Origin: Candidatus Tectimicrobiota bacterium
GTDB taxonomy: Bacteria; JACPSX01
DNA length: 6,937 bases
Direction: 5' to 3'
Assembly (NCBI GenBank): GCA_016193065.1
Contig: JACPSX010000123.1
Coordinates: 1-6,937, forward strand
The notes below the pieces were generated by a model. It saw only the letters and a list, made by a program, of their open reading frames with translations. It was not told where the DNA came from and made no database searches. Each line of letters begins with the position of its first letter. Position 1 is the first letter of the stretch. This document shows, one piece after another, positions 1,372 to 6,937 of the stretch. The position numbers and the translations under genes were made by a program.

Positions 1372-2337
1372 ATGGAATTTGCCCTAGCCCTGGCCCCCCA
1401 AGTCCTCGTAGATGGCCTGGTCTTGGGGTTCATGTACGCCCTGATCGCGCTGGGCTACACGATGGTCTACGGGGTGCTCCAGTTCATCAACTTCGCCCAC
1501 AGTGAAATTTTTGTCCTGGGGGCCTTCGTCGGCGTCGAGATCCTGTTGGGCCTGCAGGGGGCGGGTGTGCTGGCGGGGATCCCGGTCTGGGTCCTCCTGC
1601 CGGTTCTGGTGGCTGCCGGCATGGCGGCCAGTGGCTTTCTGGCCGTCGGTGTCGAACGGGTGGCCTATCGCCCCTTGCGGGGTGCTCCTCGTCTGGTCCC
1701 TCTCCTTTCCGCCATCGGCATCTCCTTCTTCTTGCAGGATGCGATCCGCTTCCTGGAGAGCATCTGGCGCAACGCCTTTTATCTGACCTATCCCTCTCTG
1801 GAGGGGCTGGATCGACGGATCCAGCTCGGCCCCGCCCTCGACATCTCGGTGAAGTCTCTGGTCGTGATTGGTTCCTCGATCCTCATGCTGGTGGGCCTGA
1901 CCTTCCTGGTCAACAAGACGAAGATGGGCAGGGCCATTCGAGCTGTGGCTCAGGATCCGGAAACGGCCAGCCTTATGGGGGTTGACGTGAACCGGGTTAT
2001 TTCTCTCACGTTCCTAATCGGCGGGGCCATGGGGGGAGCCGCCGGGGTCCTCTTCGGCATCCAGTATAGCCTGATCAGCCCCTACACGGGGTTCATCCCC
2101 GGGATCAAAGCGTTCACGGCGGCCGTGCTCGGGGGGATCGGCAACATCCCCGGGGCCATGGTGGGCGGCCTTGTCCTGGGGCTTCTGGAATCCTTTTCCG
2201 CTTCTTACCTGTCGCTGCTCACCGGAGGTGCTTTCGGAGCCGAGTACAAGGACATCTTCGCGTTTTCTATTCTCATCCTGATCCTCATCCTGAGACCCAA
2301 GGGGCTTTTGGGTGAAGTGGTGGGGGAAAAGGCATGA
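1372..2337 (+). CDS. livH: Branched-chain amino acid ABC transporter permease LivH
   Basis: A 321-residue inner-membrane permease that forms half of the transport channel with LivM. It is strongly hydrophobic along its length, with about eight membrane segments. Family hallmarks are ALIALGYTMVYGVLQFINFAH near residues 24-44, the segment VERVAYRPLRGAPRLVPLL, and a cytoplasmic coupling loop MGRAIRAVAQDPETASLMGV at about 185-204 that docks onto the ATPases. The conserved AVLGGIGNIPGAMVGG stretch starts near residue 250, and the protein ends with the typical LRPKGLLG. Length agrees with LivH (about 300-320). The chosen ATG gives the usual short N-terminus before the first helix. Its ribosome binding site is poor: I see only a weak purine patch (CCGAG) just before it, so translation may depend partly on the upstream gene. 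Its stop codon overlaps the livM start (ATGA), which indicates translational coupling. Confidence 0.94.
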   Translation: MEFALALAPQVLVDGLVLGFMYALIALGYTMVYGVLQFINFAHSEIFVLGAFVGVEILLGLQGAGVLAGIPVWVLLPVLVAAGMAASGFLAVGVERVAYRPLRGAPRLVPLLSAIGISFFLQDAIRFLESIWRNAFYLTYPSLEGLDRRIQLGPALDISVKSLVVIGSSILMLVGLTFLVNKTKMGRAIRAVAQDPETASLMGVDVNRVISLTFLIGGAMGGAAGVLFGIQYSLISPYTGFIPGIKAFTAAVLGGIGNIPGAMVGGLVLGLLESFSASYLSLLTGGAFGAEYKDIFAFSILILILILRPKGLLGEVVGEKA

Positions 2338-3029
2338 GAGCCCTTAAATATCTTGCCCTGGCCCTGCTCTACATCGGCGGCACCTCTCTCCTGGTGATTG
2401 TTTTTCCCCGCTCCCTGCCGGCATTCCTGGCCTTTCAGAGCTCTTTGCTGCTGCTCTACTATCTGCCGCTGTCCCCTCATCTGCGGATCTCTCTGGCCTT
2501 TGCCGTCCTCGCGCTCCTCATGCCCCTGATCGGCACCATCAATGGGTATTATCTCGAGATTGCGATCCAGGTGGGGATCTTCGTGGCCCTGGCCCTGGGG
2601 CTCAACATCGTGGTCGGCATGGCCGGTCTGCTGGATCTTGGTTACGTGGCCTTTTTCGCGGTGGGTGCTTACCTGTGGGCGATTTTCGGCTCTTCCCAGG
2701 CCAACGAGTTTATCCCCCGTTCCTGGCTCGAGTTTCCTTTGCCCCCTGCCTGGTTCTTTGTTTTCCTCCTGCTTGGAGTCGTGGCGGGGGCCTGCACCGG
2801 TTTCATTTTAGGGCTGCCCGTCTTGCGATTGCGGGGGGACTATCTGGCCATCGTGACGCTCGGGTTTGGCGAGGTGATCCGGGTGCTGGCCAACAACCTG
2901 GATAAGCCCATCAACTTGACGAACGGGCCCAAGGGAATCACCCCGATTCAACGGCCGCCGCTCTTTTTCCAGCACCTCTTGGAGAACTTGGGTTTTTCCG
3001 TCTCGACGCCGGCGCTTTACTCCCTCTAG
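2334..3029 (+). CDS. livM: LivM N-terminal portion, truncated by TAG
   Basis: This is the 231-residue product expected if the amber codon is obeyed. It contains the extra N-terminal hydrophobic segments, the conserved VGMAGLLDLGYVAFF helix region and the periplasm-exposed LTNGPKGI part. It ends at TPALYSL, just before a membrane helix. It lacks the ABC-coupling loop and the C-terminal membrane segments, so on its own it should not be a working permease. LivM proteins are normally about 300-425 residues. Confidence 0.6.
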   Translation: MRALKYLALALLYIGGTSLLVIVFPRSLPAFLAFQSSLLLLYYLPLSPHLRISLAFAVLALLMPLIGTINGYYLEIAIQVGIFVALALGLNIVVGMAGLLDLGYVAFFAVGAYLWAIFGSSQANEFIPRSWLEFPLPPAWFFVFLLLGVVAGACTGFILGLPVLRLRGDYLAIVTLGFGEVIRVLANNLDKPINLTNGPKGITPIQRPPLFFQHLLENLGFSVSTPALYSL

Positions 3030-3050
3030 TTTTATTTTCTGGTTCTGCTG

Positions 3051-3599
3051 GTGGTCCCCGCAGTCATCACCGTCACCCGCCGCCTGGACCATTCCCCCAT
3101 CGGCCGTGGCTGGGAGGCCATTCGGGAGGACGAACTGGCGGCGGCCAGCATGGGGGTCCCCTTGATTCGCATGAAGCTGCTTGCCTTTGCCATCGGGGCC
3201 TCCTTTGCCGGGATCATGGGGGTCATCTTCAGCGCCAAACAGTATTTCATCAATCCGGAAAGCTTCACCTTCATGGAATCCATCGGGGTCCTGGCCATGG
3301 TGATCCTGGGAGGGATGGGAAGCATCCCCGGAGCCATCCTTGGCGCCAGCCTCGTCACGGTCTTGAACCTCCAGGTGCTCAAGGGTCTCTCTCTGTGGCT
3401 CAATACACTGCGGAATTCCGGGCAGATTCTCTCCATTCCTTTTCTGGGTGACTTTGCCTTGAGCCAGCTTCCGGCTCAACTGGAACCGGCCAAGTATGAG
3501 CGCATGGTTTTTGGTATCATTATTGTGTTGATGGTCATCTTCCGGCCCCAGGGGATATGGCCTGCTCGCAGACGTCTGGGAAAGGCCGGAAGGGCATAA
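3051..3599 (+). CDS. livM: LivM C-terminal portion, same frame after the TAG
   Basis: This open frame continues directly from the interrupted livM. The earliest possible re-start is GTG 3051, giving 182 residues. It carries the cytoplasmic coupling loop (EAIREDELAAASMG), the MKLLAFAIGASFAGIMG helix, the LGGMGSIPGA motif and the last membrane helix ending FRPQGIWP. I see no Shine-Dalgarno sequence before GTG 3051, since the preceding bases are T-rich helix codons. Independent translation is therefore doubtful, and this is best regarded as the rest of livM. One base separates its TAA from the livG start. Confidence 0.5.
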   Translation: MVPAVITVTRRLDHSPIGRGWEAIREDELAAASMGVPLIRMKLLAFAIGASFAGIMGVIFSAKQYFINPESFTFMESIGVLAMVILGGMGSIPGAILGASLVTVLNLQVLKGLSLWLNTLRNSGQILSIPFLGDFALSQLPAQLEPAKYERMVFGIIIVLMVIFRPQGIWPARRRLGKAGRA

Positions 3600-3600
3600 C

Positions 3601-4395
3601 ATGGCTTTGCTGGAAGCAGTGGGGATCCGCAAATCGTTTGGCGGGCTCTTGGCCCTCAGCGAGGTTGATTTACGCCTCGAGCCGGGGGAAATTGCCAGCA
3701 TCATCGGCCCCAACGGGGCCGGAAAAACGACCCTCTTTAACATCTTGACGGGCCTTGATCTTCCGGACTCCGGGGCAATCTGGTTCGGCGGACGACCGGT
3801 GACGGGGCTCAAGGCCGAGCAAATCACCGCCCTGGGCATTGCCCGCACATTCCAGAACATCCGGTTGTTTGCGAACATGAGCGTGCTGGAAAACGTCCTG
3901 GTCGGAATGCACTGCCGGCTTCCCTTCCGGCTCTGGAGCGTGCTGGCCAGAAGCCGGCGCTTTACGGAAATGGAGGAGAAGGCCTGGGAACAAGGACAGG
4001 CGCTCTTGGAACTGGTCGGCCTCCAGGACAAGCAAAATGAGCTGGCTCGAAATCTCCCCTACGGGGATCAGCGCCGGCTGGAGATTGCCCGGGCGTTGGC
4101 CGCGCGCCCGATGCTCCTGCTGCTGGACGAGCCTACGGCAGGCATGAATCCCGGAGAGGCTCGCGTTTTGATGGAATTCCTGCGCCGCCTGGTGGAGCAG
4201 TTTGAGGTCACCCTCCTCCTCATCGAGCATAATATGCGCGTCGTGATGTCCATATCCGATTGGGTCAGCGTTTTGGATCACGGGGAGAAGATCGCCGAGG
4301 GGACGCCCGAGGAGGTGCAGCAAAATCCCCGGGTCATGGAGGCGTATCTGGGGAGCAAAGACTGGGGGAAGGGGAGTCTCCAACGCGATGCTTGA
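3601..4395 (+). CDS. livG: Branched-chain amino acid ABC transporter ATP-binding protein LivG
   Basis: A 264-residue cytoplasmic ABC ATPase that energises the LivHM channel as partner of LivF. Walker A is GPNGAGKTT (residues 36-44), and Q85 in ARTFQNIRLF forms the Q-loop. The signature is LPYGDQRRLEIARALA (about 152-167), the YGDQRR form typical of LivG instead of LSGGQ. Walker B with the catalytic glutamate is LLLLDEP (172-178; E177), then TAGMNP, and the H-loop histidine is H210 in IEHNM. The C-terminus has the usual EGTPEEVQQNPRVMEAYLG. The stretch at about 103-124 is the LivG-specific insert. All ATPase residues are present and length is normal (E. coli LivG is about 255). GGAAGGG six bases before the ATG is a good ribosome binding site. 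The start sits one base after the livM stop, and the end overlaps livF by eight bases. Confidence 0.96.
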   Translation: MALLEAVGIRKSFGGLLALSEVDLRLEPGEIASIIGPNGAGKTTLFNILTGLDLPDSGAIWFGGRPVTGLKAEQITALGIARTFQNIRLFANMSVLENVLVGMHCRLPFRLWSVLARSRRFTEMEEKAWEQGQALLELVGLQDKQNELARNLPYGDQRRLEIARALAARPMLLLLDEPTAGMNPGEARVLMEFLRRLVEQFEVTLLLIEHNMRVVMSISDWVSVLDHGEKIAEGTPEEVQQNPRVMEAYLGSKDWGKGSLQRDA

Positions 4396-5116
4396 AATCG
4401 AGGATCTTCATGTTCACTATGGCTCCATCCCGGCCCTGCGGGGGATCTCCCTGTTTATTCCGCGGGGGGAAGTGGTGGCTCTGTTGGGGAGTAACGGCGC
4501 CGGCAAGAGCACGACGCTGAAAACCATCTCGGGTCTGTTGAAGCCCAAGCAGGGAACGATGCGACTAAATGGGGAGCGCATCGATGGGCTTCCACCCTAT
4601 GCGGTCGTGCAGAAGGGGGTTTCCCACGTCCCCGAAGGGCGGCGGATCTTCAACCGGATGACGGTCCGCGAAAACCTGGAAATGGGTGCTTACACCCGCC
4701 GGGACGGAGAGATTGCCCGGGACATGGAGAGGGTTTTTGAACTCTTCCCTCGGCTGGCCGAGCGCTGCAATCAAGTGGCGGGAACCCTGTCCGGCGGGGA
4801 GCAGCAAATGCTGGCCATCGGCAGGGCTCTCATGTCGAACCCCTCCCTGCTGTTGATGGACGAGCCCTCCCTGGGACTGGCTCCCCGCCTGGTGGAGATG
4901 ATCTTTCGCGTGATCGAGGAGATCCGCAGCCGTGGCACCACGATTTTTCTGGTGGAGCAAAATGCCCTTATGGCCCTCTCCGTGGCCCGCATGGCCTACG
5001 TTCTGGAAACGGGTCAGATCGTAGGTTCAGGAGAAGCCGCAGTGCTCCTGCGTGACCCGAAGGTGCGCCAGGCGTACCTGGGGGAACCCCCGGAGAGTGC
5101 TGAAAACCCCGGTTAG
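4388..5116 (+). CDS. livF: Branched-chain amino acid ABC transporter ATP-binding protein LivF
   Basis: A 242-residue ABC ATPase, the second nucleotide-binding subunit of the Liv transporter. Walker A is GSNGAGKSTT (34-43). The Q-loop region reads VPEGRRIF, with E83 at the usual glutamine position, a LivF family trait. The signature is LSGGEQQMLAIGRAL (134-148), and Walker B LLLMDEP (154-160; E159) is followed by SLGLAP. The switch position has Q191 in LVEQNA instead of histidine, also normal for LivF. The protein ends with DPKVRQAYLGE plus a short tail, so the TAG at 5114-5116 is at the natural family end (E. coli LivF is about 237). ATG 4388 lies inside the end of livG. The purine-rich run GGGGAAGGGGAG upstream serves as ribosome binding site. 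Translational coupling to livG is likely. Confidence 0.96.
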   Translation: MLEIEDLHVHYGSIPALRGISLFIPRGEVVALLGSNGAGKSTTLKTISGLLKPKQGTMRLNGERIDGLPPYAVVQKGVSHVPEGRRIFNRMTVRENLEMGAYTRRDGEIARDMERVFELFPRLAERCNQVAGTLSGGEQQMLAIGRALMSNPSLLLMDEPSLGLAPRLVEMIFRVIEEIRSRGTTIFLVEQNALMALSVARMAYVLETGQIVGSGEAAVLLRDPKVRQAYLGEPPESAENPG

Positions 5117-5170: not shown

Positions 5171-6655
5171 ATGGCCCAGACCTACCATAACTTCGTCGCC
5201 GGGAAATGGGTCCCGGCCCGGTCAGGAAAAACCTTTGAGAGCATCAACCCGGCGCGGAAAAAGGAGGTGCTTGGGATCTTCCCCTGCTCCGAAGCCGCGG
5301 ATGTGGCCCAGGCTGTACAGGCAGCCCGCCGGGAGTTTCGACGCTGGCGTCTGACACCGGCCCCGAGGCGGGCTGAAATTATGTTCCGGGCCGCGGAAAT
5401 CATGGTGAGCCGGAAAGAGGAACTGGCTCAAATCATGACCCGGGAGATGGGGAAGGTTTTGAAAGAGAGCCGGGGGGATGTACAGGAAGGCATCGACATG
5501 ACCTACTTCATTGCCGGGGAAGGGCGGCGGCTTTATGGAGAGACAACCCCCTCGGAATTGCCCGATAAGTTTGCCATGTCCATCCGGGTTCCCGTTGGAG
5601 TGGTAGCGGCCATCACCCCCTGGAATTTTCCCCTGGCCATCCCCACCTGGAAGATTGTCCCGGCCCTGGTGTCTGGCAACACGGTGGTGTTCAAGCCGGC
5701 CGAGGACACCCCCCTGGTGGCAACTATGCTCGTGCAGATCTTCGAGGAAGCGGGTCTTCCGGGCGGAGTCTTAAACTTGGTCCATGGGTTTGGCGAAGAG
5801 GCGGGAGCCGCCCTCGTGGCTCATCCGGGCGTGGATCTCGTATCGTTTACCGGTTCCTGTGAGGTGGGTCAGCAAGTGGCCGTGCGCTGCGCTCAGGATT
5901 TCCGCAGGGTTTCCCTGGAGATGGGGGGCAAGAACGCGATTCTCATCATGGAGGATGCGGATCTGGATCTGGCTGTGGAGGGAGCCGTCTGGGGGGCCTG
6001 CGGCACCACGGGACAGCGCTGCACGGCGGCCAGCCGCCTGATCGTCCATAAGCAGGTTGCCCGAGAGTTCACCGAGCGGTTCGTCAGCGCCGTGTCCCGG
6101 CTGCGCCTGGGAGATGGAATGAAAGCTGAAACGGACGTGGGACCCGTTATTAACGAGGCCCAGCTCAAACGGGTCGACTCCTATACCCAGATTGCCCGCC
6201 AGGAGGGGGCTTCCATCCTGTGCGGAGGAGAGGTGGCTGTGGAGGGGGAATGCGCCGAGGGATTTTTCTATAAGCCCACAGTGTTTGCTCAGGTGACACC
6301 GCTGATGCGGATTGCCCGCGAGGAGATCTTCGGGCCCTGTCCGGCGCTCCTTCCCGTGGGCAGCTTCGAGGAAGCCCTGGAGGTTGCCAATAGCACTTCT
6401 TACGGCTTGTCTTCAGCCATTTACACCCGGGACGTGAACCGGGCCTTCGTGGCCATCCAGGAGCTGGCAGCGGGGATCACTTACGTGAACGCTTCGACCA
6501 TCGGGGCCGAGGTTCACCTCCCCTTTGGCGGGATTTGCCACACGGGGAACGGTCACCGGGAAGGAGGGAAAACAGTCCTCGACATTTTTACCGAGTGGAA
6601 GGCCGTCTACGTGGACTACAGCGGGAAGCTCCAGAAGGCCCAGATTGATCGATAG
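5171..6655 (+). CDS. NAD(P)-dependent aldehyde dehydrogenase family protein
   Basis: A 494-residue soluble enzyme of the ALDH superfamily that oxidises an aldehyde to the acid with NAD(P)+. All key parts are visible: PWNFP with N152 (oxyanion residue), K175 in FKPAEDTP (cofactor binding), FTGSCEVG with G228-G233 (GxxxxG dinucleotide loop), E250 in SLEMGGKN (general base), and the nucleophile C284 in GQRCTAASR. The REEIFGP motif and the terminal [16 protein letters not shown] follow. The GQRCTA form and the C-terminus recall semialdehyde dehydrogenases of the aminoadipate-semialdehyde (ALDH7-like) and ketoglutarate-semialdehyde groups, but substrate cannot be assigned. I chose ATG 5171, which gives the usual family N-terminus [12 protein letters not shown] 5141 would add ten residues. 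It lies 54 bases after livF on the same strand and is probably co-transcribed. This suggests a role in breaking down the imported compound, which is inference. It ends with TAG. Confidence 0.92.
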
Positions 6656-6811: not shown

Positions 6812-6937
6812 ATGCCTACTTACACATTCAAATGCCAGGACTGCCACGAGGAGTTTAGCCTGAAATTAACTTTTCAGGAGCGGGAGGCCAAAGAATATAA
6901 GTGTTCGAAGTGCGGCGGGAAAAACCTGGAGCCGGTC
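6812..6937 (+). CDS. FmdB-type zinc-ribbon protein, partial at the right edge
   Basis: The first 42 codons of a gene that continues beyond the window. The protein begins MPTYTFKCQDC and has two CxxC knuckles, C8/C11 and C31/C34 (KCSKCGGKN), that would bind one zinc ion. This is the layout of the FmdB / CxxC_CxxC_SSSS zinc-ribbon family, small proteins of about 60-110 residues that start MPxYxFxCxxC. Most have no proven function; the name comes from a putative regulator next to formamidase/amidase genes. It sits 156 bases after the aldehyde dehydrogenase with its own strong ribosome binding site, and may be last in the operon or start another unit. The C-terminal part, which would show any low-complexity tail or further domain, is outside the window. 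Confidence 0.8.
   Translation, partial: MPTYTFKCQDCHEEFSLKLTFQEREAKEYKCSKCGGKNLEPV

Follow-up and report, generated by a model that had tools for sequence, protein, structure and literature searches.

The window, meaning the whole stretch of DNA analysed, is the complete contig C38 of 6,937 bases, from a metagenome-assembled draft genome (294 contigs, 2.9 Mb, 86% complete). One point of detail is corrected: the window is the whole of a short contig in a fragmented assembly. It carries a branched-chain amino acid ABC transporter (liv) operon in the order binding protein, livH, livM, livG and livF, followed by an aldehyde dehydrogenase gene; the binding protein, LivH, LivG and LivF genes are all present and all unbroken, and the livM frame is interrupted by one stop codon. 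The features are as follows.

115–1317, + strand: solute-binding protein (LivJ/LivK-like), intact (NCBIfam PRK15404, E = 1e-64; Peripla_BP_6)
1372–2337, + strand: livH permease, intact, its stop overlapping the livM start in ATGA (NCBIfam PRK10740, E = 7e-72; sequence)
2334–3599, + strand: livM permease frame of 421 codons, broken by a single in-frame stop
3027–3029, + strand: in-frame TAG, codon 232 of livM; Tyr in the 15 closest relatives
3105–3131, + strand: conserved motif GWEAIREDE, absent from the predicted truncated product (translation)
3601–4395, + strand: livG ATPase, intact (NCBIfam PRK11300, E = 5e-84)
4388–5116, + strand: livF ATPase, intact, with a normal TAG at its end (NCBIfam PRK11614, E = 1e-76; sequence)
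5171–6655, + strand: aldehyde dehydrogenase (alpha-ketoglutaric semialdehyde dehydrogenase-like), intact, with a normal TAG end (NCBIfam NF042993, E = 9e-163, below its cut-off; sequence)

The interrupted livM frame

The livM frame extends from the ATG at 2334, which overlaps the livH stop, to a TAA at 3597–3599, and the TAG is the only stop within it; the other two forward frames across the same stretch contain 13 and 4 stops. Read through the TAG, the frame matches PF02653 (E = 2.7e-45) over residues 73–400, with LivM/BPD_transp_2 homology along its whole length. The two halves occupy consecutive regions of the BPD_transp_2 profile (positions 2–121 before the stop and 134–268 after it, of 269), and the LivM model PRK11301 likewise matches each half in consecutive stretches, with each half below the full-length cut-off. 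Intact LivM homologues, to which the window copy is up to about 75% identical, align over approximately residues 8–421, which fits the combined length of 421 codons. These results bear out the earlier note, which had described a single TAG, rightly numbered codon 232, in an otherwise open livM, with the same frame on both sides and a normal combined length. The frame shares its single-frame domain and its operon order with LivM permeases (NCBIfam NF008450 subfamily; PF02653), and differs from intact members in the single TAG that stands in frame in place of a Tyr codon.

Conservation around the stop codon

The ancestral residue was assessed in 79 relatives from genome contigs, comprising Methylomirabilota, Rokuibacteriota, deltaproteobacterial MAGs and others. 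Homologues were gathered as open frames, with WEAIREDE among the search patterns; a break would appear as a truncated match, as it does for the window’s own copy. Tyr aligns with codon 232 in 55 of the 79 relatives, and in 42 of the 49 in which the neighbouring columns are cleanly aligned. The 15 nearest relatives all have Tyr, encoded by TAT or TAC, either of which is converted to TAG by one third-position change, and no stop occurs at this site in any of the 79. Where the earlier note had proposed Tyr, Trp or Gln, alignment with the closest relatives thus selects Tyr.

Median identity to relatives is 74% over the 189 codons after the stop, compared with 73% for livH, 66% for livM before the stop, 63% for livG and 64% for livF. 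The higher identity after the stop is the normal pattern, as relatives compared with each other behave likewise (71% before and 78% after; 70% and 76% for the window copy). Of the positions that do not vary among the 15 relatives, the window copy retains 100 of 101 before the stop and 94 of 96 after it, within the leave-one-out range; taken with the homology, the latter count indicates that the open frame beyond the stop reflects more than chance, and that coding character persists downstream, as had been claimed. Downstream of the stop, the second- to third-position difference ratio is 0.25, slightly above the 0.20 between relatives, a weak hint at most. The frame contains no second lesion, and both halves look to be under selection. 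With the flanks conserved and no further lesion, the stop is either recent or not real; it lies one substitution away from a conserved sense codon, between flanks that show no decay.

TAG usage in the genome

TAG serves as a normal stop codon in this genome. Across the 1.13 Mb used in the codon scan (39% of the genome), it terminates 97 of 312 long frames, and it separates distinct, complete Pfam domains lying in one frame: NADHdh from Oxidored_q3 (NuoH and a NuoJ-like protein), 2Fe-2S_thioredx from Complex1_51K (NuoE and NuoF), and H_PPase from DUF502. Release factor RF1 (prfA) is present, above its cut-off. No in-frame TAG was found in matches to ABC_tran (60), Peripla_BP_6 (15), Aldedh (5) or AMP-binding (13), and a livM search of the same genome returned no further example; an EF-P domain search of the genome gave no match.

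The scan for interrupted frames yielded 30 candidates (11 TAG, 10 TGA and 9 TAA) with no excess of TAG, in a weak scan for which livM itself falls below the threshold. Pfam was run on 20 of these candidates. In four of them, domains flank the stop on each side (H_PPase and DUF502, NuoH and NuoJ-like, NuoE and NuoF, E1 alpha and beta), and these were rejected as adjacent genes that share a frame. In a further candidate only one side of the stop carries domains, and the rest, with no domain, are probably antisense frames.

Origin and consequences of the stop codon

By all appearances the livM stop is either a recent nonsense mutation of the ordinary kind or an error in the sequence, rather than a sign of a new code or of programmed readthrough. 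We favour, at about an even chance, a real and recent nonsense mutation of livM, inferring that the base is genuine and its product inactive. The invariant Tyr in the 15 closest relatives, a downstream half as well conserved as LivH, and a TAG that functions as a normal terminator alongside RF1 all point to it; against this, an assembly error would yield the identical sequence, and the complete lack of a second lesion is equally expected from error.

On the favoured reading, a TAT or TAC codon would have become TAG, and translation would end after 231 residues, before a transmembrane helix. The C-terminal half of LivM would not be made, including the GWEAIREDE loop for coupling to the LivG and LivF ATPases, a segment that we take to be the cytoplasmic loop contacting the ATPase subunits in this permease family. 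With a real stop the permease, and with it the transporter, would then probably be inactive, and the locus would be either a pseudogene in the making or a null allele at strain level. Loss of livM could be tolerated, because other Liv permeases and binding proteins may stand in for it: the genome has several Liv permease paralogues and yields 15 matches to Peripla_BP_6.

The alternative that the metagenome assembly contains a base-call or consensus error here, and that livM in the living cells is intact with a codon for Tyr at this site, is a serious contender to which we give somewhat less than an even chance. The shortness of the contig, the fragmentation of the assembly and the absence of a clear sign of relaxed selection in livM are consistent with it, as is the occurrence of broken genes beyond livM, although those other lesions could be real pseudogenes. 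Two Peripla_BP_6 solute-binding genes are each in two pieces in different frames, as if frameshifted: one on contig C48 (37240–38189, − strand), with the break at about 37821, and one on contig C137 (9865–10801, + strand), with the break at about 10064–10077. On contig C150 (4754–5074, − strand), an ABC_tran match covering only profile positions 1–91 contains one in-frame TGA; it may be a pseudogene, or the alignment may extend beyond a gene end. Isolated broken genes therefore occur at a low rate in this assembly, whatever their cause. A literature search on MAG pseudogenes found nothing. Compared with single-nonsense pseudogenes and sequence errors in draft bacterial genomes, livM is alike in its isolated stop, its conserved flanks and its freedom from a second lesion, and no difference was seen.

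Of the three origins put forward in the earlier note, recent mutation and base-call error thus hold, whereas suppression or readthrough is unsupported. The other readings (readthrough, a split gene, reassignment) jointly retain only a small share of the probability. Partial readthrough of the TAG, by a suppressor tRNA or in a leaky context, would give some full-length LivM and would suit two conserved halves in one frame, but is unlikely: a CUA anticodon is absent from all 33 tRNAs found across the genome, and the only Tyr tRNA found has GUA, in a set that is incomplete (Ala, Cys, Gln, Glu, Ile and Lys tRNAs unseen), so that this absence is not proof. Nor is the stop conserved in relatives, and the RNA fold after it has a z-score of +0.7, no structure beyond chance, and structure-stimulated readthrough is rejected. 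Suppression of this amber codon in the cell by a tRNA that the incomplete assembly lacks, giving reduced and possibly regulated amounts of full-length LivM, is very unlikely.

A split livM, with a translational restart after the stop (GTG 3051 or ATG 3150) and a permease assembled from two polypeptides, is similarly improbable. The in-frame GTG, 8 codons past the TAG, opens a 182-residue frame, but it encodes a normal Val within a hydrophobic helix and has no ribosome-binding-site-like sequence upstream, which makes reinitiation unlikely; a start at ATG 3150 would drop the coupling loop, and homologues are unbroken at this place.

Reassignment of TAG is known as code 15 in phages (PMC9523058), and screens for alternative codes have been published (PMC8629427). 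Such systems resemble livM in having an in-frame TAG at a conserved position, but livM is a single instance, TAG still ends other genes, and no matching tRNA was found. That this organism reads TAG as Tyr or pyrrolysine, as the one conserved Tyr site might suggest, is exceedingly improbable given normal termination at TAG, RF1, the four surveyed families free of in-frame TAG, and a best PylS score of 25.7 against 178 bits, which lies far below the cut-off and resembles the usual cross-matches in control genomes; pyrrolysine is rejected on this score.

Both main readings are ordinary and have little bearing beyond annotation. There, this livM should be flagged as interrupted, and the transporter should be counted as functional only with read support. 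The locus is also instructive as a negative case: where TAG still terminates other genes of a draft genome, one isolated in-frame TAG is not evidence of recoding.

The genome is the sole member of its phylum among the genomes compared and may represent a poorly sampled lineage. At the end of the window, positions 6812–6937 encode the first part of a zinc-ribbon protein of FmdB-like type (Zn_ribbon_8), which runs off the contig.
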